DNA of 64,000 nt from the NCBI RefSeq assembly GCF_014268445.2, contig NZ_CP077089.1, forward strand, positions 1,047,501 through 1,111,500. Reading direction: 5' to 3'. This stretch comes from Pseudomonas tensinigenes. Its GTDB lineage: Bacteria > Pseudomonadota > Gammaproteobacteria > Pseudomonadales > Pseudomonadaceae. Below are positions 12,007 through 33,057 of this stretch, piece by piece (position 1 is the stretch's first letter; every line of letters starts with the position of its first letter). The notes beneath the pieces were generated by a model, which searched no databases, was not told where the DNA came from, and worked only from the letters and a program-made list of their open reading frames with translations. A program made the position numbers and the translations under genes.

Positions 12007-12011
12007 CTCTC

Positions 12012-13450: not shown

Positions 13451-13544
13451 GATGGACGGGCTTATATGTGCGTTCTTATTAGAAGTTTGCACATCTATAC
13501 TCCAAAAACAGTCCGACAACCAATTCGTGACACACGCCTCATCT

Positions 13545-13565
13545 CAAGGCGAACCTTTCGCCTTG
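13545..13565. promoter_or_regulatory. Perfect 9-bp inverted repeat upstream of mmsA
   Basis: CAAGGCGAA, three bases, then TTCGCCTTG, ending 34 nt before the mmsA start. It could be an operator for the divergent LysR protein or a 5'-UTR hairpin. The half-site is not a typical LysR T-N11-A box, so the role is open. Confidence 0.4.
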
Positions 13566-13599
13566 GCTCCTACGATAAAAACAAGTTTCGGAGACCAGC

Positions 13600-15126
<1,527 letters not shown>

Positions 15127-15136
15127 GGAATCGATC

Positions 15137-16867: not shown

Positions 16868-16913
16868 CCGCACCAAGGAGGTGCGGCGTCTGTGGGGTTT
16901 TGCAGACTTTTTT
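16868..16913 (+). terminator. Tandem hairpins with T-run in the operon leader (possible attenuator)
   Basis: CCGCACC-AAGGA-GGTGCGG (16868-16886) is followed at once by GTCTG-N10-CAGAC (16888-16907) and then TTTTTT (16908-16913). The second hairpin plus T-run has the form of an intrinsic terminator on the plus strand. It points at the ACP gene 147 nt downstream. It may end a leader transcript, terminate an upstream transcript, or act in attenuation. Confidence 0.55.
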
Positions 16914-16942: not shown

Positions 16943-16972
16943 TTGACTCTCCCCTTAAGGGCAGAGTTTAGA
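16943..16972 (+). promoter_or_regulatory. Candidate sigma-70 promoter of the biosynthetic operon
   Basis: TTGACT (16943-16948), 18-nt spacer containing CCCTTAAGGG, then TTTAGA (16967-16972). It lies downstream of the leader terminator and about 90 nt before the ACP start. The -10 match is only moderate. Confidence 0.35.
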
Positions 16973-17059
16973 TTCCCGCCGCGTGAGAAGTTGCTGTGGG
17001 AAAAGTTACTTTTCATAAGTCGAATTCATGAAGTAGTCACGACATATAGGGAGATAGAA

Positions 17060-17629
17060 ATGAACAATCCATTGGACTTGGAACATGTCGTTGCCAGCAC
17101 TCGCGAAATCCTCGCACAGCTGTTGGTGATGGATGCGAATGACATCGAAGAAAACAGCAGCATTGTCGAAGACCTCGGTGCCGACTCGCTGGACATCGTC
17201 GACCTGAGCTTCCAGCTGGGCCGCCAATATGGCTGCACACTGCCGAAAACCAGCGTGCTCGACCATGCAGTGGCGGTTTGCGGTGATGCCAGCGAATTTC
17301 TCGCCAACGGTCGCATTACCGAAAGCGGCAAAAGCCTGCTTGAGCAAAGCCTGAGCGCCTACACCCCGGATCAACTGAAGGCGGGCATGCAACCGGCTCA
17401 GGTGTTCGCCGCGACCACCGTGCGTAACTGGGCCAACCAGTGCCGCAATCTCTTCAACTACCTGCCGGCAACGTGCCCTGATTGCAATGCTCATCAGGCG
17501 ATTCTGAACGAGCGCCAACAAGTGGTCTGCGGCGTGTGCAGTGCGCGTCTGGTGCCGGCGGATGGCGATGAAGTGTCGCGTCAATTGGTTGAGCAGTTTG
17601 TCGCCACTCACGCCAAAGAAGCGGTGTAG
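17060..17629 (+). CDS. Acyl carrier protein with C-terminal zinc ribbon
   Basis: 189 aa. Residues 5-85 form an ACP domain. The phosphopantetheine serine is Ser43 in GADSLDIVDLSF, and helix I (REILAQLLVMDANDI) is typical. A linker helix (about 100-135) is followed by CPDC and CGVC 15 residues apart (about 145-165), the pattern of a zinc ribbon, which ordinary ACPs of 75-90 aa lack. Start 17060 has AGGGAG upstream; an earlier in-frame GTG would run back through the leader terminator. It is the first gene of the operon and the only carrier protein, so it should hold the growing chain for both ketosynthase pairs and for the reductase. The ribbon may dock partners or bind nucleic acid; this is unknown. 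Confidence 0.85.
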   Translation: MNNPLDLEHVVASTREILAQLLVMDANDIEENSSIVEDLGADSLDIVDLSFQLGRQYGCTLPKTSVLDHAVAVCGDASEFLANGRITESGKSLLEQSLSAYTPDQLKAGMQPAQVFAATTVRNWANQCRNLFNYLPATCPDCNAHQAILNERQQVVCGVCSARLVPADGDEVSRQLVEQFVATHAKEAV

Positions 17630-17637
17630 GAGTTCTC

Positions 17638-18912
17638 ATGCGGGCACGAGAAGTCTATGTGAGCGGGTTCGGTCTGGTGGCGCCCATGGCGCTGGACGCT
17701 GCCACGTTGTTCGAGCGGATTTGCCGGAAGCAATCCTGTGTCCGCGAACATCCTCGGTTCAAGGCGTTGGGATTCAGCAACAGCGCTGCCGGGTTTATTG
17801 ATGACGCGCAGTGGCAGCAGATCGGTGCCGGTTTCGGCGGCAATGCGGCGCTGCACCCGCGACAAAGTGTGCTGGCCGAGTACGTCGCCCGGCAGGCGCT
17901 GGAGCACGCCGGCCTGACGCCGGCAGACTTTGCCCACAGTCGCAGCGGTCTGTTTCTGGGCGCCAACAAGTACTGTGCCGACAGCCATGATCTGCAGCGG
18001 CTCAGCCGTTGCATGGATAAGGCCGGACGCGTCGACCTCGACCGTCTGCTGGACAGTCCGGCACCTTCCAGCGCGACCTTCACCCGGCGGGTCGATCAAC
18101 AGACGCAACACCTGGCCGATCGGCTCGGCATTCGCGATCACATCTCGACCCATTCCGATGCCTGTGCCGCCGGCACCATGGCCATCGGCAGTGCTTACCG
18201 GGCCATCGAGCGCGGAGAGATCGATCTGGCTATTTGCGGCGCCGTCGAACTGATGGCCAACGAACTGCCTTATTACATGTTCAACAGCCTCGGCGCGCTC
18301 TGTCAGGCCGACTTGCCGGCGAGCGAACAGAGCCGCCCGTTCATGCCCGACCGTAGCGGTTTTGTCCTCAGCGAAGGCTCGGCGATGGTCATTCTCGAAT
18401 CCGCTGAACACGCGCAGCGGCGCAAGGCTGCGCCACTGGGCCGAGTGTTGGGTTACGCGAATGTCTGCGAGGCGCAGAAAATGACCTCCAGCAGTCGCGA
18501 CGGCAGTAAATACGAGGAATGCATGGAAGCAGCAATCGAAGACGCCGGGCTGCTGCGCAGCGCCGTGCAACACGTCAACACCCACGGCACCTCCACACAG
18601 GCCAATGACAGTTGTGAAGCGTTGGCGCTGCAGCGGTTGTTTGGCGGCTGCCAAGATTTCATGACCTTCACCGCCAACAAGTCCGCCATCGGTCATTCCC
18701 TGGCAGGCAGTGGCGCGATCGAAGCGGTGCTGTCGCTGATGAGTCTGCGTGACGGTGTGCTGTTGCCCACCCTGAATTACGACCCCGAGCGTGCCGAATA
18801 CCCTTCGCTGAAGTTCTTGAGCGAGCCGGTGCGCCAGTCGATCAACGTGGTGATGTCCAACTCGTTCGGCTTTGGCGGCATCAACAGCTCGCTGGTTTTG
18901 GGGAGGGCATGA
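17638..18912 (+). CDS. Beta-ketoacyl synthase, active subunit of pair 1 (KS-alpha 1)
   Basis: 424 aa thiolase-fold condensing enzyme of the FabF/type II PKS kind. The triad is complete: Cys176 in SDACAAGTMAIG, His316 in VNTHGTSTQ, His353 in NKSAIGHSLAGSGA. The C-terminal SNSFGFGGINSSLVLG is canonical. It would condense malonyl-ACP onto an acyl chain. It starts 8 nt after the ACP gene. The following gene is a ketosynthase homologue without the triad, so the two probably form a heterodimer as in aromatic and polyene type II synthases. The TACSS/DACAA context differs from the FAS-type FabF active site, which argues against a spare FabF. Confidence 0.9.
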   Translation: MRAREVYVSGFGLVAPMALDAATLFERICRKQSCVREHPRFKALGFSNSAAGFIDDAQWQQIGAGFGGNAALHPRQSVLAEYVARQALEHAGLTPADFAHSRSGLFLGANKYCADSHDLQRLSRCMDKAGRVDLDRLLDSPAPSSATFTRRVDQQTQHLADRLGIRDHISTHSDACAAGTMAIGSAYRAIERGEIDLAICGAVELMANELPYYMFNSLGALCQADLPASEQSRPFMPDRSGFVLSEGSAMVILESAEHAQRRKAAPLGRVLGYANVCEAQKMTSSSRDGSKYEECMEAAIEDAGLLRSAVQHVNTHGTSTQANDSCEALALQRLFGGCQDFMTFTANKSAIGHSLAGSGAIEAVLSLMSLRDGVLLPTLNYDPERAEYPSLKFLSEPVRQSINVVMSNSFGFGGINSSLVLGRA

Positions 18913-18913
18913 G

Positions 18914-19972
18914 ATGAACCGAGCCATCTATCTCAATGCCGCAGCGGTGCTGAATGTGGCAGGCAGTGAATGCGCTGACTTGCTCGGCACACCCTGTGCG
19001 GCGCAACCGCTGGCATTTGACGCACAGCGTCAGGCGTTTGCATTACCGGTGCCGCGACTGGCCAGTGACCTGTTTGATCGCAAGATCCAGCGCAGCGTCG
19101 AACCGCAGGGCTTGCGCCTGTTGCATTGCGCCGCACGGCTGGCGCCAGCGCTGTCGGCGCTGCAATTGCCCGCGTCACGCATTGCCCTGACAGCGGCCAT
19201 TCCTGAAGTCGACGCGCCGAGTCCTTGCTGGGATGCGGTGCAGGCGATCATCGAACAGCCGCAAAAACAACTGGCGCAGTTATTGGCCAACACACCGCCC
19301 CTGCATGCGCTGACCCTGCTCAACAGCAGCGTCATGGCCTATGTGGCTGAAGCATTGAATTGCCATGGGCCAATGGGTGGATTTTGTTCTCAGGACAACG
19401 CCGGGCTGGATGCGCTGATCGAAGCTTGCCAGCAGATTGGCGAGCGACATGCCGACGCCGCGTTGGTGGTCAGCAGCAGCCCGAACCTGACCCCGGCCCT
19501 GTATCTGCGCGAGCCCGATCAGGCGAACGAAGCGATTTTCGGTGAGGGCGCCGCCGCGCTGTTGCTGGCGTCGACACCGCCGCCGGGTGCGGCACACGCC
19601 GTGCGCATCGCCGGGTTTGCCCGTGGTTACAGCACCGATCCGCAACGGTCTGTGGCGGTGGGTCGGCGCGTGATCGACCAAGTCCTGAGTGTCGAGAAAC
19701 TGCGGGTCGGCGACGTCGAGCATATCGTCGGCAATTGCGCTGACGGGCAAGTGATGAAGCTGCTCGAAGCCTTCCCGCGCGAGATTCGCAGCACCCGCGC
19801 CATGACCGGTGAACTGGGCGCCAGCGGTTTGCTGACAGAAGTCGCACTGACACTGCACCTGAGCTGTGAAGTCGCGGCGACGCCGGGCTACACGTTGCTT
19901 GTCAGCCACACTCGCGCCGGTCACTGGGGCGCATTGCTGTTGGCCAGTGAAACCATGGAGAAGCACGCATGA
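18914..19972 (+). CDS. Ketosynthase-like chain-length-factor homologue (KS-beta 1)
   Basis: 352 aa, shorter than a full ketosynthase. By alignment with its neighbours the nucleophile position is Asp161 (CSQDNAGLDALIEA); the nearby Cys158 is three residues out of register. The two catalytic His motifs are replaced (VEHIVGNCADGQ; MTGELGASGLLTE). The fold-forming FGEGAAALLLAS segment is kept. This is the pattern of chain-length factors (KS-beta), which heterodimerise with KS-alpha and shape the tunnel. Start 18914 lies 1 nt after the previous stop. The longer frame from 18872 runs inside KS-alpha 1 and is not needed. The stop overlaps the next start (ATGA). Confidence 0.82.
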   Translation: MNRAIYLNAAAVLNVAGSECADLLGTPCAAQPLAFDAQRQAFALPVPRLASDLFDRKIQRSVEPQGLRLLHCAARLAPALSALQLPASRIALTAAIPEVDAPSPCWDAVQAIIEQPQKQLAQLLANTPPLHALTLLNSSVMAYVAEALNCHGPMGGFCSQDNAGLDALIEACQQIGERHADAALVVSSSPNLTPALYLREPDQANEAIFGEGAAALLLASTPPPGAAHAVRIAGFARGYSTDPQRSVAVGRRVIDQVLSVEKLRVGDVEHIVGNCADGQVMKLLEAFPREIRSTRAMTGELGASGLLTEVALTLHLSCEVAATPGYTLLVSHTRAGHWGALLLASETMEKHA

Positions 19973-21264
19973 GTGCGACACGGATTGTGATCACCGGCAT
20001 GGGCGCCGTCACCGGTTTCGGTTTCGAATGGCAGACCCTCTGGGAAAAAATGCTCGGCGCCGAACATTGCGTGCGGCCATGGCAGCCGGACGACGTGCAA
20101 GAGGCGTCGTTCGCGGTGCGTTATGCAGCGCCTGTCGACATGCGCCTGTTGCCGGAAAAACTGCACAGCCATCCGGCCTGGACGATGCCGCTGGAAAAGC
20201 GCAGCCGCTTTGGCTGGGTCGCCGCCACGCAAGCCGTCAACGACAGCGGCTTGCAGCCTGAACAGTTGCTGGGCGCAGCGGTGCTGTGTGCCTCGGGCGC
20301 ACCGCAGCACATGCTCGCCGACATGCTGCTGACCGAAGCCCCGAATGGCGGCACCCCGAGCTGGTCATACCTGATGTCGCGGGCCGGGCAAGTGAATGCC
20401 GATGGCTCGCTACGCCAGAGCAACGACCGTCTGGCGCGGGTAATCGCCGACGACCTGGGCTGTGAAGGGCCGGTGATCAACATCAGCAGTGCCTGTGCCG
20501 GTGCTTCGCAAGCCATTGGCAATGCCTTTCAGATGATTCGTCGCGGAGAAGTCAGCGTTGCGCTGGCGGGTGGCGCCGACTCGGTGCTCAACCTCGACAC
20601 CATGGCGGCGTTGTATCTGTTGGGTGCCGCTTCGGGCGAGCAACGCTGGGGCGCGGATCTGTGTCGCCCGTTCGATCGTGATCGCAGCGGTCTGATTGCC
20701 GGCGAGGGCGGTGGTTTCGTCGTGCTGGAAAGCCTCGAACATGCCTTGGCCCGTGGCGCCACGCCGTATGCCGAGGTGTTGGGTTTCGGCAGCAGTCTGG
20801 ACGCCTACAAAGTCACCGCACCGCAACCCGAAGGACGCGGTGCGGCACTGGCGATGCAGGCCGCGCTCGACGACGCCGGGCTACGCCCGCAGCAGATCGA
20901 TCTGATCAACGCCCACGGCACTTCGACACCGCTCAACGACGTTGCCGAAACCCTGGCGATCAAAAGTGTGTTCGCCGAGCACAAGCATTATCAAGCCTTG
21001 GCGGTCAGCGCCAACAAATCACAGTTCGGTCACCTGATCGCAGCCGCTGGCGCCCCTGAATGCATCGTCACCGCGTTGGCCTGCCTCAACGATCTGGTCA
21101 CGCCAACGGTGAACCTGCATGACGCCGACGAACAGTGCGATCTGGATTACTGCGCCGGTCAGGCGGTCAGCCGCCGAGTGGATTACGCGCTGAGTAATTC
21201 CTTCGGTTTCGGTGGCCTCAATACCTCGCTGGCCCTTGGCAAATATCGGGAGCACGGACAATGA
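19969..21264 (+). CDS. Beta-ketoacyl synthase, active subunit of pair 2 (KS-alpha 2)
   Basis: 431 aa FabF-like condensing enzyme with full triad: Cys176 in ISSACAGASQAIG, His316 in INAHGTSTPLND, His355 in ANKSQFGHLIAAAGA. The C-terminus SNSFGFGGLNTSLALG is standard. It starts in the stop of KS-beta 1 and its own stop overlaps the start of KS-beta 2, so all four condensing genes are translationally coupled. A second active/inactive pair suggests either two elongation phases (starter formation and extension) or two chain-length specificities on one ACP. Confidence 0.9.
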   Translation: MSATRIVITGMGAVTGFGFEWQTLWEKMLGAEHCVRPWQPDDVQEASFAVRYAAPVDMRLLPEKLHSHPAWTMPLEKRSRFGWVAATQAVNDSGLQPEQLLGAAVLCASGAPQHMLADMLLTEAPNGGTPSWSYLMSRAGQVNADGSLRQSNDRLARVIADDLGCEGPVINISSACAGASQAIGNAFQMIRRGEVSVALAGGADSVLNLDTMAALYLLGAASGEQRWGADLCRPFDRDRSGLIAGEGGGFVVLESLEHALARGATPYAEVLGFGSSLDAYKVTAPQPEGRGAALAMQAALDDAGLRPQQIDLINAHGTSTPLNDVAETLAIKSVFAEHKHYQALAVSANKSQFGHLIAAAGAPECIVTALACLNDLVTPTVNLHDADEQCDLDYCAGQAVSRRVDYALSNSFGFGGLNTSLALGKYREHGQ

Positions 21265-22469
21265 CTGTTGCCACTGTACCTGTCGCGATCGCCGGCAGCG
21301 GCTGTGTGTTGCCCACCGGCTGGGGCGTTGAGGGTTTCTGGTCGGCGGCCCGCGAAGGGCGTAGCGCGATCTCGCCCCTGAACTCGTCGTTGTTCCACAG
21401 CGAGCGGGTCACTGCATTCGGACACATCGCTGATCGAGATCATCAACGTAGCCGTCAGGACGTTGCGCAAAACCTCCAGCGTTACTGTCCGCCGGCGGTG
21501 ATCTGGGGTGTCAGTGCGGTGCGCCAGGCGTTGGCAGAAGCCGGGCTTGAACCGGGCCGCGACAGCGTGCGTTTTGGTCTCTATTGCTGCCAGGGCGGTT
21601 ACACCCATCCGTCGCTCGCGTCTTACGGCGAACTGCTGCACGAGTGTCAGACCGAGACTGGTGCCGACATGCAGCGTCTGGCCAAACGCGTGTTGCAGGA
21701 GCGCGCACTCGATCCGTTCCTGGTGCTCAAGAGCCTGAGCAACGGTTTGCTCGGCGTCGTCAGTCTGGCCTTGAAGCTTGAGTGCGAATGCAACGCCTAC
21801 ATGCAAGGCGTGGCCGGCAATTTGGCGGCGCTGCGCGAGGCCTGCGCGGCGTTGCAAAGCGGTCGGATCGACGCAGCCATTGTGGTGGGCGCCGGCAGTG
21901 AACTGGATCCGCTGGCGCTTGCCGCACTGGCCGAGGCGGGGGTGATCAGCACCGACGGTTCGCCAAGCCTGCGTGCCTTTGATCGCCAAGGCAGTGGCGG
22001 CATTGCCGGCGAAGGTGCGGCGGCGCTGGTACTGCGCCGCGCCGATGATCTGCCGGCGGGCCCGAAAACCTGCCTGACAGCACTGTTCGCCCACCCTCGT
22101 CTGGATTCGCTGAACCTGCCGGATAAACAAGTGGATCTGCTGGTCAGCAGCGCCACTGGCGATCCGCACAAGGATGCCGATCTGGCTCGCACCCTGGCAC
22201 GAACCGGCGCCGCACACATCACCAGCAGCACAGCACTGACCGGCATTCTCAGCGGTGCGCCGAGCCTGGTTGATCTGATTCTCGCCAGGCAGGCGTTGCA
22301 GGCGCAAAGCATCCCGCCGGTCAGTGGTCTGGAACAACCTGTGGCTGCGCACCTGCCGTTCGTGATCGGCGGGCCGCGCGATGCCGTGCTCCACGATTGC
22401 CTGGTGATCAACCGCGACGACAACGGTTTCAGCACCGGTTACCAACTCGAATTTCACGCGGCCGACTGA
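21261..22469 (+). CDS. Ketosynthase-like chain-length-factor homologue (KS-beta 2)
   Basis: 402 aa thiolase-fold protein. The nucleophile position holds Val184 (YMQGVAGNLAALREA), and neither HGT nor NKSxxGH motifs are present (STALTGILSGAPS in the last position). The GIAGEGAAALVLRR segment shows that the fold is retained. It is therefore a non-catalytic partner, most likely of KS-alpha 2, with which it overlaps by 4 bases. A 54-nt gap with a small RBS follows before the aminotransferase-reductase gene. Confidence 0.82.
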   Translation: MTVATVPVAIAGSGCVLPTGWGVEGFWSAAREGRSAISPLNSSLFHSERVTAFGHIADRDHQRSRQDVAQNLQRYCPPAVIWGVSAVRQALAEAGLEPGRDSVRFGLYCCQGGYTHPSLASYGELLHECQTETGADMQRLAKRVLQERALDPFLVLKSLSNGLLGVVSLALKLECECNAYMQGVAGNLAALREACAALQSGRIDAAIVVGAGSELDPLALAALAEAGVISTDGSPSLRAFDRQGSGGIAGEGAAALVLRRADDLPAGPKTCLTALFAHPRLDSLNLPDKQVDLLVSSATGDPHKDADLARTLARTGAAHITSSTALTGILSGAPSLVDLILARQALQAQSIPPVSGLEQPVAAHLPFVIGGPRDAVLHDCLVINRDDNGFSTGYQLEFHAAD

Positions 22470-22523
22470 CCGTCGGCATGCAACGAAACGCAGCTGATTT
22501 TTTACTCAAGGGATAGAACTGTC

Positions 22524-25394
22524 ATGGATTACCGCGATTACGTACGGCCGAAATTCGTTGAATTGATGCAGGCCCTGGGCCTCGAATGCCAGTTCCACAG
22601 AGCGCTGGGTAGCAAACTGTTTTACCGCGACCGCCAGGGCGATGAAGTGACCGTCACCGACTTCCTCGGCGGTTACGGCGCTGCGCTGTATGGCCACAAC
22701 GATCCGCAATTTGTCGAGCAACTCGTCGACCTGTTGCGCGCCGATGTGCCGTTTAACGCGCAGATGTCGGTGCGCGGTGCGGCGGGGCAGTTGGGGCGTG
22801 AACTCAGTGAAGCGTTCAACCGTGAACTGAACAACAGCGAACGCTACATTTCGACCTTCTCCAACAGTGGCGCCGAGTCGGTGGAAATCGCCGTCAAGCA
22901 CGCCGAATACCGTCGTCAGAAAAACCTGCAGAAGCAATTCGACGAGCGCGATTTCGCCCTCGCCAATCTGGTCGCCAGCGACAAGGCTTACGTCGAACTG
23001 GACATCGACGATCTCGATTTGCCAGCCGGTCTGCTGCCGCAGAATCTGTCCTGCGTCACCGTGCGCCAAGTGGCCGAAGCGGTGCGTCAGCACAACCTGG
23101 CGCAGTTGCATGTCGAGCCGGTATTCCTCGCTGTGCGCGGCAGCTTCCACGGCAAACTGGTGAACACCGTTCAACTGACGTACGGCAAGCAGTACCGCAA
23201 GCCGTTCGCCCGTTTCGGCCTCAACGTCGAGTTCATCGACCCACAACAGCCACAGCAATTGCAGGAGCTGCCGGCCCGTCATATTCGTCACTGGCTGAGC
23301 CTGGAATGGAGCGGCGAAACCCTGCAGGTGCGCCGCGAAGCATTCAGTGCGATCACGGCGGTATTGCTCGAACCGATTCAGGGCGAGGGCGGGATCAACG
23401 AGTTCGCCAATGAGTTTTATCTGGGCCTGCGGCGTCTGTGCAACGAACAGCAATGCCCGCTGATCATCGACGAAGTGCAATCGGGCTTCGGCCGCACCGG
23501 CACTTTGCTGGGTGCCAGCCATTTCAACTTGCAGGGCGATTACTACTGCCTGTCGAAAGCGCTGGGCGGTGGCTTGATGAAAATCGCCGCGACGGTAATC
23601 CGCGCCAGCCACTACGAAAACGATTTCAGCTACATCCACAGTTCGACCTTTGCCGAAGATGATGCGTCCTGCCATATCGCCCTGTCGGCCTTGCGCCGTC
23701 TGTTCGAAAACGACAGCGCGATGCTCAAGGACGTGAACAAAAAGGGCGAGTACCTCAAGGCTTCGCTGCTGGAACTCAAAGCGGCCTATCCGGACGTCAT
23801 CGCCGACGTGCGTGGGCGCGGCTTGCTGCTGGGCTTCGAACTGCACGACCTGACCGGCACCAGTTCGCTGGTTCAGGCATCGGCGCAGTACAACGATGCG
23901 CTGGGCTACATCATCGCCGGCTACCTGCTGCAATTCGAATCCCTGCGCGTGGCGCCGTCGGGCAGCAACGCCAATGTGATCCGACTGGAACCGCCGGTGT
24001 GCATCACCTTCGAAGAGATCGATGGACTGATCGCGTCCTTGCAGAAAGTCTGCGACATGCTGCGCCGCCGCGACGCCTTCCCGCTGGCCGCCGGAGTGTG
24101 CGCCGACAGCATCGCTGACGTGCCGGCGCGCGAGGTCAGCTTCAAGGAGAGCGAAACCCGCCCAAAGTCTGACGAGAACGTGCGTGTGGTGGCTCGCGTG
24201 GCGTTCATCAACCATCTGATTGATTCGGACATGCTCAGCGACGTCGATCCTTCATTGTCGACCCTGAGCGCTGAACAGAAACGCGAGTTCATCAAACGCA
24301 TGGCCCCCGAGCGCCGTGCCGCGCCCATCGGCCCGGTGCAGATTCGCTCGAAACTCGGCACTGCCGTGGAGTTCACCCTGTACCCGCTGTGCATGGATTC
24401 CGATGCCATGGCGGCGTATATCGCCAGCGGCGATCTGCAGACCATCCGCGAAGAAGTCGGCAATCGCATCAAGGATGCCCGCGCCGATGGCTACACCGTC
24501 GCTGGGCTGGGCATGTACACCTCGATCGTCACCAACAACTGCCAGGCCTTGCAGATTCCTGACATGGCGCTGACCTCCGGTAACGCGCTGACCATCGGCA
24601 TGGGCCTGGAAGCTATCGAGCAGGGCTGCAAGCAGCAAGGCCTTGAGCTGGGCGAGCAGACTGCCGCAGTGGTCGGTGCCGCCGGCAACATCGCCTCGAC
24701 CTACGCCTCGCTGCTGTCGACCAGTGTCGAGCACCTGATCCTCATCGGCAGCGGCCGCGACGGTTCCCTGCGTCGTCTGGAAAAAACCGCGCAACAGATT
24801 TATGCCGAAGCCGCCCGCGCGATTCTCAAGGGCGTCGCCGAGCACGACCGTCTTGCCCGTCGCTTGCAGCAAATCGACGGTATTGATGCGCTGTTGCAGG
24901 CCCATGGCAGCAGTGCCGATCTAGGCGTGCGCGTGGCGAAACTGGTCGAAGAACGCTTGGGCGCGAACGCCTTCATCACCGTCAGCAACGATCTTGATGT
25001 GCTGAAACAGGCACGCATCGTGCTCTGCGCGGCGAACGCACCGCAGCCGTTTCTTTTTGCCGAGCACTTCGCCGAAAACAGTGTGATCTGCGACATCGCC
25101 GTTCCGCTGAACGTTGACCAGAACCTCGCCAGCCAACGCAGCGACGTGCTCTACATGCACGGCGGCATCGTGCAGACGCCGCTGGGTGATGGCCTGGTGA
25201 AAAACGTTCGCGCCTATCTCAAGCAAGGTCAGTTGTACGCGTGCATGGCCGAGTCGGTGCTGATGGGCCTGTCCGGGATGAAACAGCACTACTCCTACGG
25301 CGACATCAGCCGCGAGCAAGTGCAGCAGATTCGTGCACTGGCGGCGACTCACGGCTTCAGCCTCGCCCAGTTCAAAACCGACAACTCGCTCTAA
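22524..25394 (+). CDS. Class III aminotransferase fused to an acyl-ACP reductase
   Basis: 956 aa didomain protein. Residues 25-530 are a fold-type I PLP aminotransferase of class III. The features seen are SNSGAESVEIAVKHA, LLEPIQGEGG, the cofactor-binding IIDEVQSGFGRTG (Asp316) and Schiff-base Lys345 in LSKALGGG. Residues about 590-956 resemble cyanobacterial long-chain acyl-ACP reductase (AAR). The evidence is a nucleotide-binding loop AVVGAAGNIAS near 715, a LYMHGGIVQTPLGDG strand, and the end QLYACMAESVLMG with Cys907 followed by ISREQVQQI and THGFSLAQF. These correspond to the AAR tail with its acyl-accepting cysteine. Predicted reaction: acyl-ACP to aldehyde with NADPH, then transamination to a primary amine. 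TamH of tambjamine biosynthesis is a functional analogue. RBS AAGGGA lies upstream of the start. Confidence 0.85.
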   Translation: MDYRDYVRPKFVELMQALGLECQFHRALGSKLFYRDRQGDEVTVTDFLGGYGAALYGHNDPQFVEQLVDLLRADVPFNAQMSVRGAAGQLGRELSEAFNRELNNSERYISTFSNSGAESVEIAVKHAEYRRQKNLQKQFDERDFALANLVASDKAYVELDIDDLDLPAGLLPQNLSCVTVRQVAEAVRQHNLAQLHVEPVFLAVRGSFHGKLVNTVQLTYGKQYRKPFARFGLNVEFIDPQQPQQLQELPARHIRHWLSLEWSGETLQVRREAFSAITAVLLEPIQGEGGINEFANEFYLGLRRLCNEQQCPLIIDEVQSGFGRTGTLLGASHFNLQGDYYCLSKALGGGLMKIAATVIRASHYENDFSYIHSSTFAEDDASCHIALSALRRLFENDSAMLKDVNKKGEYLKASLLELKAAYPDVIADVRGRGLLLGFELHDLTGTSSLVQASAQYNDALGYIIAGYLLQFESLRVAPSGSNANVIRLEPPVCITFEEIDGLIASLQKVCDMLRRRDAFPLAAGVCADSIADVPAREVSFKESETRPKSDENVRVVARVAFINHLIDSDMLSDVDPSLSTLSAEQKREFIKRMAPERRAAPIGPVQIRSKLGTAVEFTLYPLCMDSDAMAAYIASGDLQTIREEVGNRIKDARADGYTVAGLGMYTSIVTNNCQALQIPDMALTSGNALTIGMGLEAIEQGCKQQGLELGEQTAAVVGAAGNIASTYASLLSTSVEHLILIGSGRDGSLRRLEKTAQQIYAEAARAILKGVAEHDRLARRLQQIDGIDALLQAHGSSADLGVRVAKLVEERLGANAFITVSNDLDVLKQARIVLCAANAPQPFLFAEHFAENSVICDIAVPLNVDQNLASQRSDVLYMHGGIVQTPLGDGLVKNVRAYLKQGQLYACMAESVLMGLSGMKQHYSYGDISREQVQQIRALAATHGFSLAQFKTDNSL

Positions 25395-25403
25395 GGAACG
25401 GTC

Positions 25404-26141
25404 ATGCCGAATAAAGTAGCAGTGGTGACCGGTGGCAGTCGTGGCATCGGTCGGGCGATTGTCCAGACCCTGGCCGGGGCGGGTTATCAGATCGCGTTCA
25501 GTTACGTGCGCGATGAAGTCGCGGCAATGGCCTTGCGCGATGAGGTTCAGGCGTCGGGGATCGATTGCCTGGCGTTGCAGTGCGATGTCAGCAGCGGCGA
25601 CAGCATCAAGGTGTTTTTTGAGCGGGTCGATCAGCATTTTCAGCGTATCGATCTGTTGGTCAATAACGCCGGCATCACCCGCGATGGTTTGCTGGCGACG
25701 ATGTCAGCGCGCGACCTGGTCGAGGTGATCCAGACCAACCTGATTGGCACGATGCTTTGCTGTCAGCAGGTGGTGCCGGGCATGTTGCGCCAGCGCAGCG
25801 GTTGCATCGTCAACATCAGTTCGGTGGCGGCGCAGAAGCCCGGCAAAGGCCAAAGCAACTATGCCGCTGCCAAGGGCGGGGTCGAATCCTTGACCCGTGC
25901 CTTGGCGGTGGAGCTGGCGCCGCGCAACATTCGCGTCAACGCGGTCGCCCCGGGCATCGTCAAGACCGAGATGAGTACGGCGCTGATCGGCAGTCAGGAA
26001 GAAGAAATCCAGTCGCGCCTGCTGATCAAACGCTACGCCGAACCGGAGGAAATTGCCGAAGCGGTGCTGTACCTCGCCGATCGCGGTTTGTACCTGACCG
26101 GGGAGGTCCTGTCGGTCAACGGCGGGTTGAAAATGCCATGA
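25404..26141 (+). CDS. 3-oxoacyl-ACP reductase (FabG-like SDR)
   Basis: 245 aa classical short-chain dehydrogenase. It has the cofactor motif TGGSRGIGR (residues 9-17), NNAGITRDG (about 88), catalytic Ser in NISSVAAQKPG (about 139) and YAAAK (about 153), with the C-terminal NGG. The combination is closest to FabG. It sits 10 nt after the aminotransferase-reductase gene, with RBS AAGGAA. It would reduce the beta-keto group formed by the ketosynthase pairs. Its stop overlaps the next SDR. Confidence 0.88.
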   Translation: MPNKVAVVTGGSRGIGRAIVQTLAGAGYQIAFSYVRDEVAAMALRDEVQASGIDCLALQCDVSSGDSIKVFFERVDQHFQRIDLLVNNAGITRDGLLATMSARDLVEVIQTNLIGTMLCCQQVVPGMLRQRSGCIVNISSVAAQKPGKGQSNYAAAKGGVESLTRALAVELAPRNIRVNAVAPGIVKTEMSTALIGSQEEEIQSRLLIKRYAEPEEIAEAVLYLADRGLYLTGEVLSVNGGLKMP

Positions 26142-26902
26142 GCCGAACCATTCTGATCACCGGTGCGGCCAAAGGCATCGGCCGCGCGGTCGCCGAGAAC
26201 TTTGCCGCCGACGCCGACAATCGCCTGATCCTGCTGGATCTCGATCTGGCCGAACTGCAGCGCTGGGTCGACGAGCAGCAGGAGCAGATCAAGGCGCGGG
26301 TCGAAACCCATGCGGCGAACATTGCCGACCTGCCGGCCATGCAAGCGTTCTTTAAAACCCTCGGTTCGCAAGTCGATTACGTTGATGTGCTGGTCAACAG
26401 TGCCGGCATCTGCAACGAGAACGAGCCGGAGGATCTGCACAACTGGCACAAGGTGATTTCGGTCAATCTCAACGGTACGTTCTATGTGACCTCGTTGTGT
26501 CTGGCACTGATGCCCGACCGTGGGCGGATCATCAATATGTCGTCGATCCTCGGCCGTGCCGGCAAGGTGCGCAACACCGCGTACTGCGCGTCCAAGCACG
26601 GCATCGTCGGCATGACCAAGGCGCTGGCGCTGGATCTCGCTTCGCGGCAGATCACCGTCAATGCGATTCTGCCGGCGTGGATCGATACGCCGATGTTGCA
26701 GGGTGAACTGGCGACGCAAGCGGCGATTGCCGGTTTGACCCAGGAACAGATCGTGCGCAACGCGAAGAAGAAACTGCCGATGCGCCGTTTCATCCAGAGC
26801 GAAGAAGTGGCGGCGATGGTGCGTTACCTGGCCAGCCCCGAGGCTGGCGGGGTGACCGCGCAGAGTCTGGTGATTGATGGCGGTGTCGGGTTGGGAATGT
26901 AG
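26138..26902 (+). CDS. Second short-chain dehydrogenase of the operon
   Basis: 254 aa SDR starting in the stop of the FabG-like gene. It has TGAAKGIGRAV (residues 8-18), NSAGICNEN (about 86), MSSILGRAGK (Ser about 132) and YCASK (about 148), plus the C-terminal DGGVGLGM. It resembles FabG-type or 3-hydroxybutyrate dehydrogenase-type enzymes. It could be a second ketoreductase with other stereochemistry or chain-length preference, or could act on the aldehyde/amine stage. The sequence does not decide between these. Confidence 0.85.
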   Translation: MSRTILITGAAKGIGRAVAENFAADADNRLILLDLDLAELQRWVDEQQEQIKARVETHAANIADLPAMQAFFKTLGSQVDYVDVLVNSAGICNENEPEDLHNWHKVISVNLNGTFYVTSLCLALMPDRGRIINMSSILGRAGKVRNTAYCASKHGIVGMTKALALDLASRQITVNAILPAWIDTPMLQGELATQAAIAGLTQEQIVRNAKKKLPMRRFIQSEEVAAMVRYLASPEAGGVTAQSLVIDGGVGLGM

Positions 26903-26904
26903 CG

Positions 26905-28203
26905 ATGCCTCGATTTCACAACAGTCACGTCGTGGGTGCGGTGTGGGCGTGCATGGCTGCGCCCACCGCGATGGCCGAATTTACCGTCGCTGATCTGAAG
27001 CCCGATTACGCCGACGGTGAAGTCGGCGTGGCCACGGCTTTGCGCCTGCACGGTGACGATCAGGTCACGCAGAAAGCCGTGTACTTCAAGGCCAACCTGG
27101 AAGACAACTGGGAGGGCGGTTACTACAAGGCCAAGGGCCGCGTGCGTTACGACGCGCGTTATGACGGCAACAATCCGTACAGCGAACGGGCGCGGGACAA
27201 GTACCGTTTCGACGCCGATTGGCGGCACCTCTACGTCGGCCATTCGCTGGGTGACGGTGAAGTGACAGTGGGCTGGCAGCAAGTGGTCTGGGGCCGCGCG
27301 GATGAATTGCGCGTGCTCGATCAGATCAACCCGCTGGACTATCGCGATGGCCTGACGCCGCTGCTCGAAGACAGTCGCATCGCCGTGCCCATGGTGCGTT
27401 TTGCACAACCGGTGGGCGAGTGGGAACTGGAGGCGCTGTGGATCACTGACTTCGTGAAAAACCGGGCGCCGGTTGAGGGCAGTGAGTTTGCCGCGCCACT
27501 GTTTGCTACGCCGGACCCGCAGTATTTCCTGGTCGATTCCAAACCCGGCTATGACGGCGACAAGGGCTATTCCTATGGCCTGAGCGCCAACGGCCGGATC
27601 GGCGCGGTGGACACCAGTTTTGTTGCCTTGAGCGCCCGTCAGCAAGACCCGGTGTACGCCGTCGAAGGCCTCGCCGATGACGGTCGCACGCGGCTGGAAC
27701 GGCAGTTTCCCCGTTACACCATGGGCGGTGCCGGGCTGGCGATCGACGCCGGGCACAGCATCGTGGTGCGCAGCGAGGTCGCGTATTTCGACAACTGGCG
27801 AGTGACCAATCCGACGCGCGCCTACGGTGCCGACAGCACGCCGATGGTCAAGTCGCTGCTGGGCGTCGACTACCTGTTGCGCGACTGGCTGATCTCCGCG
27901 CAATGGCAGGAGCAGGTGTTGCTCGACTGGCAGGACGGCATGTTGCAGGACAAGCGCGAACCGCTGTTCACCCTGTCGGCCGAAGGCACCCATTGGCAGG
28001 ATCGTCTCAAGAGTCGTCTGGTGGTCGCTGGCTCACCGCCGTTTCAGGACGACGCCTTGCTGCAAGGCATCTTCACCTACAAGCCGGTCGACTACATCAA
28101 GCTCGGCCTGGAAGTCGACGTGTTCTTCGGCAAGCCCGAGAAGACTTTCGGCGAGTACAGCAAGCGCGATCAAGTGCGGCTGTCGGCCGGTTATCTGTTC
28201 TGA
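26905..28203 (+). CDS. Outer-membrane beta-barrel of the export module (DUF1302-like)
   Basis: 432 aa with a short signal sequence (cleavage near AMAEF, residue 24). Alternating hydrophobic/polar strands rich in Tyr/Trp and a C-terminal aromatic (LSAGYLF) indicate an outer-membrane barrel. The segment VTVGWQQVVWGRADELRVLDQ (about 115) resembles the VGRQ-NWG region of DUF1302 proteins such as the one at 52.2 kb, though it is about 200 residues shorter. It lies 2 nt after the SDR stop and before the LolA-fold gene and RND pump. I infer that it forms the outer-membrane end of a lipid or metabolite export path. Confidence 0.7.
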   Translation: MPRFHNSHVVGAVWACMAAPTAMAEFTVADLKPDYADGEVGVATALRLHGDDQVTQKAVYFKANLEDNWEGGYYKAKGRVRYDARYDGNNPYSERARDKYRFDADWRHLYVGHSLGDGEVTVGWQQVVWGRADELRVLDQINPLDYRDGLTPLLEDSRIAVPMVRFAQPVGEWELEALWITDFVKNRAPVEGSEFAAPLFATPDPQYFLVDSKPGYDGDKGYSYGLSANGRIGAVDTSFVALSARQQDPVYAVEGLADDGRTRLERQFPRYTMGGAGLAIDAGHSIVVRSEVAYFDNWRVTNPTRAYGADSTPMVKSLLGVDYLLRDWLISAQWQEQVLLDWQDGMLQDKREPLFTLSAEGTHWQDRLKSRLVVAGSPPFQDDALLQGIFTYKPVDYIKLGLEVDVFFGKPEKTFGEYSKRDQVRLSAGYLF

Positions 28204-28260
28204 CCCATCACGCCTGCCGCTCTCGCGCAGGTGCACTCATCCAACGAAAAGGAAGTTGTT

Positions 28261-29097
28261 ATGTTGCCGTTTTTGAAAAGTCTGACCACCGCCGCACTGA
28301 TCCTCGGTAGCGCCTGCGCCAGTGCCGCCGAGGCTGGCAATGCCGATGAGATCATCCGTCAGGTACGCGATCGCAATGACGGGAACAGCTTCATGTCCCA
28401 GGTTTCGCTGATCCTGCATGACAAGAAAGGCAATACCCGGGTTCGCGAGTTCACCTACCTGCAAAAGGATTACCCGGACAGCGACAAGTTCAGCATGTAC
28501 TTTTCCGCGCCGACTGACGTGCGTGACGTGGCCTTCCACATCGAAAACCCGCACGAAACCCTCGGCCTGGAAGACAGCCAGTGGATGTACCTGCCGGTCA
28601 GTCGCCAGACCCGCCGCATCTCCACCACCGACAAGCGCGGCTCGTTCATGGGCAGTGAGTACTCGTATGCCGATCTGGACAAGATCCGCGTCAAAGACTA
28701 CTCGCAGAAACTCGTCGGCGAAGAACAGATCAAGGGCCGCGACTGCTACGTGATCGAGCGCGAACCAGCCTCCCCCGAGGTGCTGGCCAAGACCGGTTAC
28801 AACAAGCTGAAGGTGTGGATCGACAAGCAGAATTTCCTGGTCATGCGTCAGGATTTCTTCGACGTCAAAGGTGTGCTGATCAAGCAGATGCGCACGCAGA
28901 AAGTCGCGACCATCGATTCGATCGACAGCATCGTGCTCAGTGAAACCGAGCATTTTATCGACGGCACGCGTTCGGAAATGCGCTTCAACCAGTTGCAGTA
29001 CAACGTTTCTCTGGAAGACCGCCTGTTCACCCAGACCGCCATCAAGCGCGGGCTGAAAACCGGTGACCTGCCGGACTTTGCCGTGTCTGCCCGCTAA
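28261..29097 (+). CDS. Periplasmic outer-membrane lipoprotein-sorting protein (LolA-like fold)
   Basis: 278 aa with signal peptide (cleavage after ACASA, about residue 22). The mature protein matches the pattern of the outer-membrane lipoprotein-sorting family (PF17131): VREFTYLQKD, MYLPVSRQTRRIS, GSEYSYADL, and YVIEREP followed by KLKVWIDKQNFLVMRQDFFD. Start 28261 has AAGGAAG upstream. Such proteins are commonly encoded beside MMPL/RND pumps and are thought to carry a lipidic cargo across the periplasm. It lies between the barrel and pump genes. Confidence 0.88.
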   Translation: MLPFLKSLTTAALILGSACASAAEAGNADEIIRQVRDRNDGNSFMSQVSLILHDKKGNTRVREFTYLQKDYPDSDKFSMYFSAPTDVRDVAFHIENPHETLGLEDSQWMYLPVSRQTRRISTTDKRGSFMGSEYSYADLDKIRVKDYSQKLVGEEQIKGRDCYVIEREPASPEVLAKTGYNKLKVWIDKQNFLVMRQDFFDVKGVLIKQMRTQKVATIDSIDSIVLSETEHFIDGTRSEMRFNQLQYNVSLEDRLFTQTAIKRGLKTGDLPDFAVSAR

Positions 29098-29124
29098 GCG
29101 CCGACCCCGACGACCTGGAACCGC

Positions 29125-31746
29125 ATGATCATGGAAAGATATCTGAATTTCGTCGAGCGCTATGCGCGGGCGATTGTTTTCCTGCTGGTGGCGATTACGG
29201 CGTATTTCACTTATACGCTGGGCGCGCTGGTGTCCGACACCAACCCTTATCTGCTCAAGGAAAGCCACCCGGCGCGCAAGACCATCATCGATTTGCAGGG
29301 TGAATTCACCGGCACGTTCGACTCGGTCATGGTGGCGCTGAACAACCCGCAAACGGTATTCAACAAATCGACGCTCAACGCGCTGTTTTCGATGTCGCAA
29401 TCAGTGCGCAAGATGATTCTGGCCAACGATGCCGACAAGGATCAGCTGGCGCAAATCGTCGCCCGCCATCCAGACGACAGCCGTGCGCAGTTGTTGACCC
29501 GGGACATTCTCGACGGCGGTTTTTCGCAGAACGATTACGCCAACGCCAAGGCTTTGCGTGATCATGCCCAGAGTCAGAACTGGGACTCCCATGATCAGCT
29601 GTTCCTGTCCTTTCTCGCCGAGCGGATCAACCCGATCCGCGAAATGGCCTCGATGGGCGACCTGGAAAACATCGTCTTGACCGACGACGGCGAACTGTTG
29701 ATCCACAAAACCCTGAATGCCTATGACATGGATCCGGCGCTGGTCGAGTCGCAGATCATGGGCAACGAGTTGATGGTCGACGGGGTGGTGTCCAAGGACA
29801 AGAAAGTCGCGATGCTGGTGGCTGAGCTCGGCACCAAGCAGGACGACGCTCAGGCGCAACTGCGGGCTTATCAGATCGTGCGCGGCATCGTCGCGCAATA
29901 TCAGGCCGAACACCCGGAGTACAAGGACGAAATCTTCATTGCCGGCATGCCGATCTTCATCGCCGCGCAACAGGAGATCATCGATCACGACCTGGCCGTG
30001 CTGTTTCCGATCGTGTTTCTGCTGATTACCTTGCTGCTGATTTTCTTCTTCCGCAAACCGCTGGGCGTGCTGCTGCCGCTGTTCAACATTCTGTTCTGCA
30101 CCATCTGGACCTTGGGCCTGATGGCGCTGTTGCGGGTGCCGTTCGACCTGTTGACCAGTGTGCTGCCGGTGTTCCTGTTCACCATTTGCTGCTCGGATGC
30201 GATCCACGTGATGGCTGAGTATTACGAGCAGAAAAACGCCGGCAAGAGCAATCGCGAGGCCAACCGCGAAACCCAGCGCTTGATGGTGGTGCCGGTGGTG
30301 TTGACGACCGTGACGACCATCGCCACGTTCATGATTTCCACCACCAACAACATTGTCAGCATCCGTAATTTCGGCGTGTTCATGTCGATCGGTCTGACCG
30401 CGGCGCTGATCATTTCGCTGTTGCTGATTCCGGCGTGGATTTCCATCTGGGGCAAGGATCAGCCGCAGCAAGCCAAGGCTGTGGTGCACCAGGAATCGAT
30501 CATCTCGCGCTATCTGGTGGCGTTCTGTGCCTGGATGATCCGCTTTCGCAAACCGATCCTGATGGTCATGCTGCCGCTGCTGGCGCTGGCCACCGTGTTC
30601 ACCTTCCGCGTCGATATCGAAGACTCCGGCATTGCTTACTTCAAGCCGGAAAGCCACATTCGCGTGTCCGATCAGTTCATCAACCACGCCAAAGTAGCGG
30701 GCACGGCGCCGGGCTGGATCGCCATCGACAGCAAGGAGCCGCGCGGCGTGCTGACCACCGAAGTGGTGCAGTTCATCGACAAGCTCGACCACTTCATCAA
30801 ACAGCAACCGAACGTCAGTTACGGCTACTCACTGGCCACGTACGTCAAGCGTATGAACCTGGTGCTCAACGACATGAACCCGGAGTATCTGCGGGTGCCG
30901 AATGCCGTGGAGAAGGTCACTTCGGTCAATGACGACGGGCAGGTCGAGCGTTTTGAAGTGCCGGGCAATTCGCTGATCGAGCAGCACGTGATGCTGTTCG
31001 AAAACGGTGGCGGTTCCGACCTGAACAACGTGCTCAACGCCGATTTCTCCAAGGCCTTGACCCTGTACACCATGACCTCGTCGGTCGCCAGCGACTATCA
31101 GGGCATGCTCGACCGCCTCGATGCCTGGCTGCTGGTGAACAAACCGGCCAACCTGGAAGTGACCCACGCCGGCACGCCGTTGATCTGGACCGGGGTGTTG
31201 CAGGAAATCACTCAGGGCCAGGTGCTGAGTTTTTCCCTGGCCTTGCTGGTCGTCACGCTGATGATGATGTACTGGCTCAAATCGGTGCGCCTCGGGGTGC
31301 TCGGCATGCTGACCTTGCTGACCACCTCGGTGACGGTCTACGGCTTCATGTTCCTGTTCGGCATCGAGCTGAACATCGGCACGACGCTGGTGACGTTCCT
31401 GGTGGTCGGTGTGGTCGATTACGCAGTGCACCTGCTGTCGCGCATCAAGTTGCTGGTGCAGCAGGGCATTGAGATCGACGCGGCTATTTTGCAGGCGATG
31501 CACAGCGTCGGTCGTTCGACGGTGATCAACGTGGTGATCTTCTCTGTCGGCTTCATGGCGCTGCTGTTTTCCGACTTCAAGCCGATTGTCGATCTCGGTG
31601 CACTGGTGGCGATGGCGCTGTTTTCCAGCGGGGTCATGACCATTGTCCTGGTGACGCTGGTGTCACCGTGGTTCTTTGCGGCGATTGCGCCGGTGCATGC
31701 GCCGGTTCCAGCACTGCATACAGAGGGAGAGACGGTGCCGGGCTGA
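29125..31746 (+). CDS. MMPL/RND-family exporter
   Basis: 873 aa with two repeats, each of one leading TM helix, a periplasmic loop (about 45-260 and 455-690) and a five-helix bundle, about 12 TM in all. The conserved charged motif of the family is seen twice in the bundles: CCSDAIHVMAEYYE (about 353) and VVDYAVHLLSRIK (about 760). It belongs to the hydrophobe-exporting RND subfamily (HpnN/MmpL-like) rather than AcrB-type drug pumps. A second in-frame ATG lies two codons in. It is the last gene of the operon and the likely energised step moving the product out of the inner membrane. Confidence 0.9.
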   Translation: MIMERYLNFVERYARAIVFLLVAITAYFTYTLGALVSDTNPYLLKESHPARKTIIDLQGEFTGTFDSVMVALNNPQTVFNKSTLNALFSMSQSVRKMILANDADKDQLAQIVARHPDDSRAQLLTRDILDGGFSQNDYANAKALRDHAQSQNWDSHDQLFLSFLAERINPIREMASMGDLENIVLTDDGELLIHKTLNAYDMDPALVESQIMGNELMVDGVVSKDKKVAMLVAELGTKQDDAQAQLRAYQIVRGIVAQYQAEHPEYKDEIFIAGMPIFIAAQQEIIDHDLAVLFPIVFLLITLLLIFFFRKPLGVLLPLFNILFCTIWTLGLMALLRVPFDLLTSVLPVFLFTICCSDAIHVMAEYYEQKNAGKSNREANRETQRLMVVPVVLTTVTTIATFMISTTNNIVSIRNFGVFMSIGLTAALIISLLLIPAWISIWGKDQPQQAKAVVHQESIISRYLVAFCAWMIRFRKPILMVMLPLLALATVFTFRVDIEDSGIAYFKPESHIRVSDQFINHAKVAGTAPGWIAIDSKEPRGVLTTEVVQFIDKLDHFIKQQPNVSYGYSLATYVKRMNLVLNDMNPEYLRVPNAVEKVTSVNDDGQVERFEVPGNSLIEQHVMLFENGGGSDLNNVLNADFSKALTLYTMTSSVASDYQGMLDRLDAWLLVNKPANLEVTHAGTPLIWTGVLQEITQGQVLSFSLALLVVTLMMMYWLKSVRLGVLGMLTLLTTSVTVYGFMFLFGIELNIGTTLVTFLVVGVVDYAVHLLSRIKLLVQQGIEIDAAILQAMHSVGRSTVINVVIFSVGFMALLFSDFKPIVDLGALVAMALFSSGVMTIVLVTLVSPWFFAAIAPVHAPVPALHTEGETVPG

Positions 31747-31815: not shown

Positions 31816-32226
31816 TCAGTTCAGAGTAGTGCCCGGGTTTTTTTCGCCATAACGGGCGATGCGTTCGAACTGACATTCCTGGCGGGCGTCGTTGAGGTTG
31901 TGTTCAAACGCCTCGAGGCCATCATGCAATTGCTGCAAATCGCCGATCTGGGTCACCAGTTCGGCTTTTTTTTCGGCGATGGCTCGTTGCGCCATGTCCC
32001 ACGGGAATTCGTCGCCGCGGTAGTTGTTGAGGATCACCTGCAGCTCTTTGAGCTTGAAGCCCAGTTGCTGGGCGCACTTGATGAACGTCAACACCTCGAC
32101 ACTTTGCTGGCTGTAGATGCGGTATTTGCCTTCACGCTTGGGCTCGGGCAACAGGCCGATTTCTTCGTAATGGCGAATGCTTTTGACAGTGGTGCCCGAC
32201 AGCTGGGCGGCTTTGCCGATATACAT
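31816..32226 (-). CDS. MerR-family transcriptional regulator
   Basis: 136 aa. The winged HTH at 1-68 (MYIGKAAQLSGTTVKSIRHY, EEIGLLPEP, YRIYSQQSVEVLTFI) is followed by a coiled-coil dimerisation helix (about 80-120). The C-terminus has one Cys (EECQ-like region) but no metal-site pair as in CueR or SoxR, so the effector is unknown. It faces the exporter gene convergently. The nearest gene upstream of it, a quinone reductase, is on the same strand 200 nt away, so it could regulate that gene or itself. Confidence 0.85.
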   Translation of the reverse strand: MYIGKAAQLSGTTVKSIRHYEEIGLLPEPKREGKYRIYSQQSVEVLTFIKCAQQLGFKLKELQVILNNYRGDEFPWDMAQRAIAEKKAELVTQIGDLQQLHDGLEAFEHNLNDARQECQFERIARYGEKNPGTTLN

Positions 32227-33002: not shown

Positions 33003-33057
33003 TGTGTGTACTCCTGAAATGAAGCGCACAGGATAGAGTCTGCCCCTAGCGGTAGAG

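Follow-up and report, generated by a model that had tools for sequence, protein, structure and literature searches.

The eleven-gene kec operon (kecA-kecK) was found by a transposon screen in Pseudomonas koreensis CI12 (Lozano 2019, PMC6498172), and its deletion in this strain results in Flavobacterium johnsoniae no longer being inhibited. Its products, compared in the same study with the kecA-K deletion, are koreenceines A–D, hemlock-like tetrahydropyridine alkaloids (PMC6498172). Koreenceine has a C14 skeleton, is listed as MIBiG BGC0001987 (PMC11888242) and is a model antibiotic of the THOR rhizosphere community. Here we discuss a stretch of 64,000 nucleotides from Pseudomonas tensinigenes (NZ_CP077089.1, positions 1,047,501 to 1,111,500; referred to as the window), in which positions 17060–31746 very probably constitute a kec cluster of the P. 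koreensis/P. mandelii type, with predicted C10 chain extension, amination and export, and with the operon likely controlled by a MerR-family regulator encoded downstream of it. The koreenceine cluster is known and published; the added part is the predicted kec-adjacent MerR control, which is undescribed in the literature searched.

The published kecA-kecK gene set and order are matched 11 out of 11 in the window, as judged by protein families against the description in PMC6498172: an acyl carrier protein (ACP), a ketosynthase (KS), a chain-length factor (CLF), a second KS and CLF, an aminotransferase-reductase, two ketoreductases, two membrane-associated proteins and a transporter, in that order. 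All eleven open reading frames (ORFs) are intact and on the + strand, and the gaps from kecA to kecK are, in order, 8, 1, −4, −4, 54, 9, −4, 2, 57 and 27 nt; the initial annotation of this DNA had described eleven genes on one strand with a largest gap of 57 nt, and recomputing the gaps gave the same maximum. Moreover, three of the four CI12 deletion primers match, i.e., those at the kecA start (24/24, 17036–17059), on the outer left (21/22, 16010–16031) and on the outer right (25/25, 32754–32778), with a chance expectation of 0.00. Therefore, the window contains the cluster in its CI12 context (clade A of PMC6498172), and the two outer primers place it beside the CI12 flanks. The initial annotation had not recognized the gene set as a named pathway and had suggested a long-chain amine or amino-polyketide as the product; both statements have to be given up, since this is the kec/koreenceine cluster (MIBiG BGC0001987) and the known products are cyclic C14 tetrahydropyridines. 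It had also held that a prior assignment of homologues to some named product from a different class would speak against it, and koreenceine is in part such a case. The identity of the cluster thus closes the question raised there, and the MerR-type control is the part worth following. The features are as follows (starts refined from the sequence: kecA ATG 17060, kecC ATG 18914 and kecH ATG 26138; the kecJ start is probably ATG 28261, with GTG 28231 also open).

16888–16907, +, terminator-like stem with a T run after it, located before the kec promoter (a consensus match only; shuffles average 0.6)
16943–16974, +, MerR-type kec promoter: −35 TTGACT (16943–16948), 20-bp spacer, −10 TAGATT (16969–16974)
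17060–17629, +, kecA: ACP with DSL motif and insertion; C-terminal part zinc-ribbon-like, with four Cys (C139, C142, C157, C160)
17638–18912, +, kecB: ketosynthase, Cys-His-His
18914–19972, +, kecC: degenerate KS, CLF-like, active Cys lost
19969–21264, +, kecD: ketosynthase, Cys-His-His
21261–22469, +, kecE: degenerate KS, CLF-like, active Cys lost
22524–25394, +, kecF: class III aminotransferase fused to an acyl-ACP-reductase-like domain; orthologue of PP_2782
25404–26141, +, kecG: ketoreductase, close relative of PpFabG4 (PDB 9NG1)
26138–26902, +, kecH: second short-chain dehydrogenase/reductase (SDR)
26905–28203, +, kecI: DUF1302, predicted outer-membrane beta-barrel
28261–29097, +, kecJ: LolA_like, predicted periplasmic
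29125–31746, +, kecK: MMPL/HAE3-like resistance-nodulation-division (RND) pump
31816–32226, −, merR (here "kecR"): 136-residue MerR-family regulator, convergent with kecK, 69 nt between
32427–33002, −, "nqo": Flavodoxin_2 NAD(P)H oxidoreductase, upstream of merR
33030–33061, −, MerR-type nqo-merR promoter: TTGACT, 20-bp spacer, TATCCT; a variant outside the strict pattern (see below)

The initial annotation ended at kecK; hence, the convergent MerR gene and the promoter were outside its reading. A single sequence block is kept in the 500 bases upstream of kecA in all 14 carriers aligned. Its window copy, TTGACTCTCCCCTTAAGGGCAGAGTTTAGATT (16943–16974), is the kec promoter listed above, and inside the spacer of this promoter there is a 22-bp palindrome, ACTCTCCCCTTAAGGGCAGAGT (16946–16967), with 10 of 11 positions paired. 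Promoters regulated by the MerR family typically have a 19–20 bp spacer with an internal palindrome, e.g., a 22-bp palindrome in a 20-bp spacer for ZntR (PMC9909328, PMC1526738), and the kec promoter has the same architecture of a −35/−10 spacer of 19–20 bp that holds a palindrome. TTGACT and TANNNT are separated by exactly 20 bp in 14/14 kec leaders, in 26 of the 28 nqo promoters that the 30 best MerR loci yielded and, taken together, in 40 of 42 kec and nqo promoters, and never by 17 or 19 bp. A loose pattern (up to two mismatches) gave three matches in the 64-kb window against 0.10 expected, i.e., the kec site, its reverse strand and 33061–33030 on the − strand, which precedes nqo and then merR. 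There are two Flavodoxin_2 reductase genes within 3 kb (35411–36001 and 32427–33002), and in the window search a MerR-type promoter was seen only at the one adjacent to merR.

With a strict pattern derived from the kec leaders, 55 sites were detected in 55 of 396 Pseudomonas genomes, one in each, and none with the reversed control. Nineteen are kec promoters (19 of the 20 carriers), assigned by their distance to kecF or by leader alignment; given the origin of the pattern these matches do not count as independent evidence, in contrast to the spacing, the nqo sites and the near-absence of the pattern from other places. The tracing of the non-kec sites covered the 15 in genomes with handles below G199 together with G221, one of 21 others outside that range. 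Among these 15, 14 are positioned approximately 0.7 kb upstream of a listed merR homologue, and the G221 site is that of an nqo-merR pair. The remaining one is an orphan operator in G114 (L167, position 4188, − strand) between the lysR2 end and the cupin gene; nqo is lacking next to it, and the 7 kb covered at this locus contain neither merR nor kec.

No standard sigma-70 promoter was found between 16600 and 17100, and no Rfam family reached its gathering threshold between 16000 and 33000. A perfect 7-bp hairpin with an AAGGA loop is located directly before the terminator-like stem (together 16868–16907). This hairpin, CCGCACC-AAGGA-GGTGCGG (16868–16886), was considered as an Rsm/CsrA-type leader control and rejected, as it lies upstream of the MerR-type promoter and AAGGAGG is present in only 3 of 14 leaders; it is more likely that the hairpin and the terminator-like stem end mmsAB transcription.

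The regulator gene itself adjoins kecK in 18/18 carriers checked, including those where kec is positioned away from the mms and cupin genes; this comparison covered 18 of the 20 carriers, with G347 and G381 included and G231 and G312 left out. By synteny, merR belongs to the kec system, and nqo is retained in 16 of the same 18 carriers. Among the 30 best MerR loci, 14 are without kecK; nqo is beside merR in all 14 of them, and the promoter motif (up to three mismatches) is present in 13. Hence nqo-merR appears to be the more ancient module, equipped with its own operator, and an operator of this kind is also present at the kec operon. Judged from these sequence data, KecR is predicted to control koreenceine production. 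Cys51 and Cys118 are conserved in 32/32 MerR sequences (two of the rows being the window's own), which makes a role for KecR as a thiol sensor plausible. We take Cys51 to resemble the sensing cysteine of NmlR/AdhR. KecR scores 43.3 bits against an NmlR cut-off of 175, far below the curated score for that family, and its best NCBIfam matches, CueR, MerR and CadR-PbrR, are all below cut-off. The CueR/CadR/MerR metal sensors have two Cys in the C-terminal loop region, where KecR has Cys118 only (32/32). In the literature searched on koreenceine (main texts, without supplements or subscription papers) no MerR regulator of the cluster is described. The word "MerR" does not appear in the main texts of PMC6498172, PMC9586298, PMC12817932 and PMC6401489, is confined to the reference list in PMC9239112, and in PMC9584964 is the botanical author name Merr.

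The biosynthetic genes provide a second line of comparison. It has been proposed that a decanoyl-type starter is extended on KecA by two malonyl units through KecB-KecC and KecD-KecE, that KecG/KecH then carry out the reduction and KecF the reductive release and the transamination, and that the ring closes without an enzyme, with export through KecI-K (PMC6498172). The initial annotation had arrived at the same steps, with a type II synthase, keto reduction, aldehyde release, transamination and likely export; hence, the published route, which is for the most part a proposal, agrees with most of its chemistry. Family searches also bear out its ACP, aminotransferase-reductase fusion, two SDRs, LolA-fold protein and MMPL pump, the reductase match being below cut-off. 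KecA is an ACP (Pfam PF00550), and kecB and kecD match the FabF-like KS family, while kecC is just under the Pfam KS cut-off and the KS match of kecE is confined to the N-terminal part. Inspection of the alignments by eye suggests that the Cys and both His motifs are kept in KecB and KecD and that the active Cys is gone in KecC and KecE. Because KecC and KecE are without it, we read the four KS-related genes as two KS/CLF-like pairs and not as the four condensing enzymes annotated initially, where the number of genes was right and the function of two was not. A Cys-His-His KS beside a partner without the active Cys, plus a discrete ACP, is the arrangement of a type II polyketide synthase (again by eye).

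KecF gives a class III aminotransferase match and a weak, below-cut-off Shikimate_DH match. In its predicted acyl-ACP reductase (AAR) domain, Cys907, G718, A720, G721 and N722 are invariant in 20/20 aligned rows and A719 is kept in at least 90%, and the corresponding Cys of the KecF orthologue has been mapped to AAR C294 (PMC10829540). This orthologue, P. putida PP_2782, is tied to the koreenceine cluster and is an active transaminase, its reductase activity having been left undetermined there (PMC10829540). Searching with the KecF protein retrieved close relatives from numerous Pseudomonas, together with an entry for a clone named pEAF66. Both kecG and kecH give SDR matches, and KecG matches PDB 9NG1 with an E value of 8.7e-125; this structure is the FabG PpFabG4/PP_2783, deposited by the authors of PMC12490732 and medium-chain-selective in vitro. 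No dehydratase was detected by family searches among the eleven kec genes. For the chlorinated koreenceine D, no convincing halogenase was found: the best PF04820 match (50.2 bits) is to a 425-residue ORF, and this model also matches 5 of 14 control genomes, including E. coli.

KecA has a CxxC...CxxC zinc-ribbon-like tail (residues 136–165) that is invariant in 36/36 aligned KecA proteins and absent from the Photobacterium KecA-like protein. A structure search with KecA retrieved ACPs, a search that barely probed the region past residue 135, and a literature search on zinc-ribbon ACPs gave nothing on point among the matches listed. The orthologue PP_2777 failed with the enzymes tried and was suspected to be misannotated (PMC12490732); the four-Cys tail may explain this failure.

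With respect to export, KecI (DUF1302) was modelled as a barrel (predicted local distance difference test score, pLDDT, 87.5; predicted template modelling score, pTM, 0.81), in line with the outer-membrane barrel of the initial annotation. Its best structure matches are OmpF-type porins, with an E value of 1.8e-12, and AlgE, an alginate exporter, with a TM-score of 0.57. KecJ belongs to PF17131 (LolA_like) and KecK to the MMPL family. AmeABCD of Castellaniella defragrans, a DUF1302/LolA-superfamily/HAE3 system, has been reported to protect against terpenes (PMC6394551). Of its features, kec has a predicted DUF1302 barrel, a LolA-like protein and an HAE3-like pump (HAE3 below cut-off), without the second periplasmic partner. 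KecI-J-K is predicted to form an envelope-spanning exporter resembling AmeABCD.

Taken together, the predicted scheme would be as follows. KecB-KecC and KecD-KecE, as KS/CLF-like pairs, would add two malonyl units to the decanoyl-type starter on KecA, as in the published proposal, and KecG, perhaps with KecH, would carry out the beta-keto reduction. KecF is predicted to act twice, first freeing the chain as an aldehyde through its C-terminal domain and then aminating it through its N-terminal domain, after which the amine likely closes non-enzymatically on the keto group of the chain, giving the tetrahydropyridine ring. KecI, KecJ and KecK would then act as the AmeABCD-like exporter. KecR likely binds the palindrome in the stretched kec and nqo-merR promoters and would distort both upon a signal, the first candidate for which is koreenceine itself or thiol stress caused by it. 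We tentatively raise the possibility that koreenceine is an autoinducer, where a Cys-based KecR from the older nqo-merR module, triggered by koreenceine or thiol stress, would turn on both kec and a reductase that protects the producer. In this context, azoR of the producer is down >270-fold upon kec deletion, and koreenceine has been linked to redox-stress responses in neighbours (PMC9239112). In the neighbour species, azoR is a Flavodoxin_2 gene. Autoinduction via KecR would explain the fall in azoR, and the producer azoR may be the nqo of the window. The candidate switch comprises one adjacent gene, one 32-bp promoter and one second target. This candidate opens the puzzling dependence of the producer's reductase expression on koreenceine to direct tests, and would provide a means of activating the pathway.

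Several points weigh against reading the locus as a koreenceine operon with its own exporter and KecR switch. For the P. tensinigenes strain, koreenceine is a product predicted from the genes. The fourth CI12 primer (inner 3′, at the kecK 3′ end) has no match in the window at up to three mismatches; hence, the DNA after kecK differs from that in CI12. The best NCBIfam model for KecK, HAE3, gives 150.9 bits against a cut-off of 351.9, and a counterpart of AmeC (COG4447), the second periplasmic partner, is absent from kec. The palindrome of the kec promoter in G165 (L113) is weak (6/10 pairs) and this promoter fails the strict pattern, the nqo site in kec carriers is outside the same pattern, and two kec carriers (G381 and G109) have merR without an adjacent nqo. 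Moreover, merR-nqo occurs without kec, and KecR may be a borrowed detoxification regulator. Finally, the transposon screen in CI12 gave 16 mutants from 2,500, with hits in cbrA, in a CysB-family regulator and in a hybrid kinase but none in merR (PMC6498172), and merR may be dispensable for koreenceine production.

These points feed into alternatives that have to be weighed. A linear long-chain amine or amino-polyketide without a known name is highly improbable as the compound made and exported by the operon: the KecF fusion could end in a free amine, but an identically ordered set of these eleven genes, with matching primer sites, makes the cyclic koreenceines A–D in CI12. It is also conceivable, albeit unlikely, that the MerR serves nqo only and that the kec promoter is similar by descent and controlled by other systems such as CbrAB. 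Here the 14 of 30 best MerR loci that have nqo-merR without kec, the nqo-merR-cupin arrangement in 4 of 30 cupin loci, and the hits of the published screen in CbrA, the CysB-family regulator and the hybrid kinase rather than merR (PMC6498172) would fit. However, the kec site keeps the exact 20-bp spacing at different genome positions, its palindromes are usually better (8–9 of 10 pairs in 12/14, range 6–9, vs 4–7 for nqo), and merR stays beside kecK even where nqo is lacking (L130, L131).

A sensing role for metal, with a CueR/CadR-like KecR that ties koreenceine production to metal, appears quite improbable. The below-cut-off CueR, MerR and CadR-PbrR matches point in this direction, as do the arsenic and cadmium genes of neighbours that respond to P. 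koreensis (PMC9239112). Yet a single conserved Cys (118) falls in the metal-loop region, against two in metal sensors, and the other predicted KecR target is a flavodoxin-fold oxidoreductase and not a metal pump.

Full-length relatives of KecF (79–100% identity) are present in 20 of 398 Pseudomonas genomes, that of the window included. They fall into bands of 97–100% (nine genomes, again with the window's own), 91–94% (five) and 79–81% (six), and we take the last band to be clade B of PMC6498172 because KecF of CI12 and PP_2782 are 80% identical. Photobacterium sp. DA100 has a kecA-K-like operon in the same order on a 2.1-Mb plasmid (L001, 9919–24808), with a short kecE-like ORF of 295 residues, and two Streptomyces (L017, L018) have the kec order A–H only. 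Since the order recurs in Photobacterium (A–K) and the two Streptomyces (A–H), the kec gene set is not due to chance. The lack of I–K in Streptomyces is as expected for a Gram-negative envelope-spanning exporter, and agrees with a statement on Streptomyces and Xenorhabdus in PMC6498172. In Photobacterium a further ORF (24023–24808) follows the kecK-like gene, and the 33 kb of L001 covered gave no relative of the merR in the window. The scan of genome contigs was dominated by unrelated aminotransferases, and 11 of 80 loci were annotated (L017–L025, L033 and L066); the kec cluster was among these in the two Streptomyces only, which says little on its distribution. Other Pseudomonas have aminotransferase-reductase fusions of 27–34% identity with no kec operon around (L104–L107 in G028, G051, G267 and G001); distant kecJ- and kecK-like genes are nearby in L105, and distant kecD- and kecJ-like genes in L106.

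With respect to the surroundings of the operon, 30 cupin loci comprise eight with kecA beside the cupin gene, 16 with the cupin gene next to lysR2, four with nqo-merR-cupin without kec, and two others. The 16 cupin-lysR2 loci are without kec or merR-nqo at that place, and one of these genomes (G035) has kec elsewhere. By coordinates, merR is within 160 nt of the cupin gene in 14 kec-less genomes, and in G135 the right flank of the window through nqo-merR is present without kec. To the left, 803–16039 is an ordinary chromosomal context with recC (by model), two further large ORFs, a YfiR-like gene, a GGDEF-type gene (by eye), YfiB, LysR, and mmsA and mmsB (by model).

In comparison with known systems, aryl polyene clusters share the type II KS/CLF chemistry, and also have LolA-like and MMPL genes; kec differs in that it is without a dehydratase among the eleven genes and has an amine release instead. 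PigE of prodigiosin biosynthesis combines an acyl reductase and a class III aminotransferase in one chain, as KecF does, but with the domain order reversed, and KecF scores 269 bits against the NCBIfam NF053554 cut-off of 850. In AmeABCD, the DUF1302 outer-membrane protein, the LolA-superfamily periplasmic protein and the HAE3-type RND pump are encoded together, which parallels KecI-J-K, while the periplasmic protein (PF17131 in KecJ vs DUF1329) and the substrate differ. The ZntR-type MerR promoters (PMC1526738, PMC9909328) resemble the kec promoter in having a 22-bp palindrome, a 20-bp spacer and an adjacent regulator gene; the palindrome sequence is different, the regulator is here predicted to act on an alkaloid operon and a flavodoxin-fold reductase gene, and KecR is without the Cys pair of the metal loop. 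P. putida KT2440 (PP_2777-PP_2787) has the same type of cluster, whose KecF and KecG orthologues have been studied in vitro (PMC10829540, PMC12490732), but belongs to the other main Pseudomonas clade in the published tree, with KecF of CI12 and PP_2782 80% identical. P. koreensis CI12 differs from the window in the DNA past kecK, at the fourth primer, and the main text on its cluster (PMC6498172) is without the word MerR; all eleven genes, their order and their genomic context are shared.

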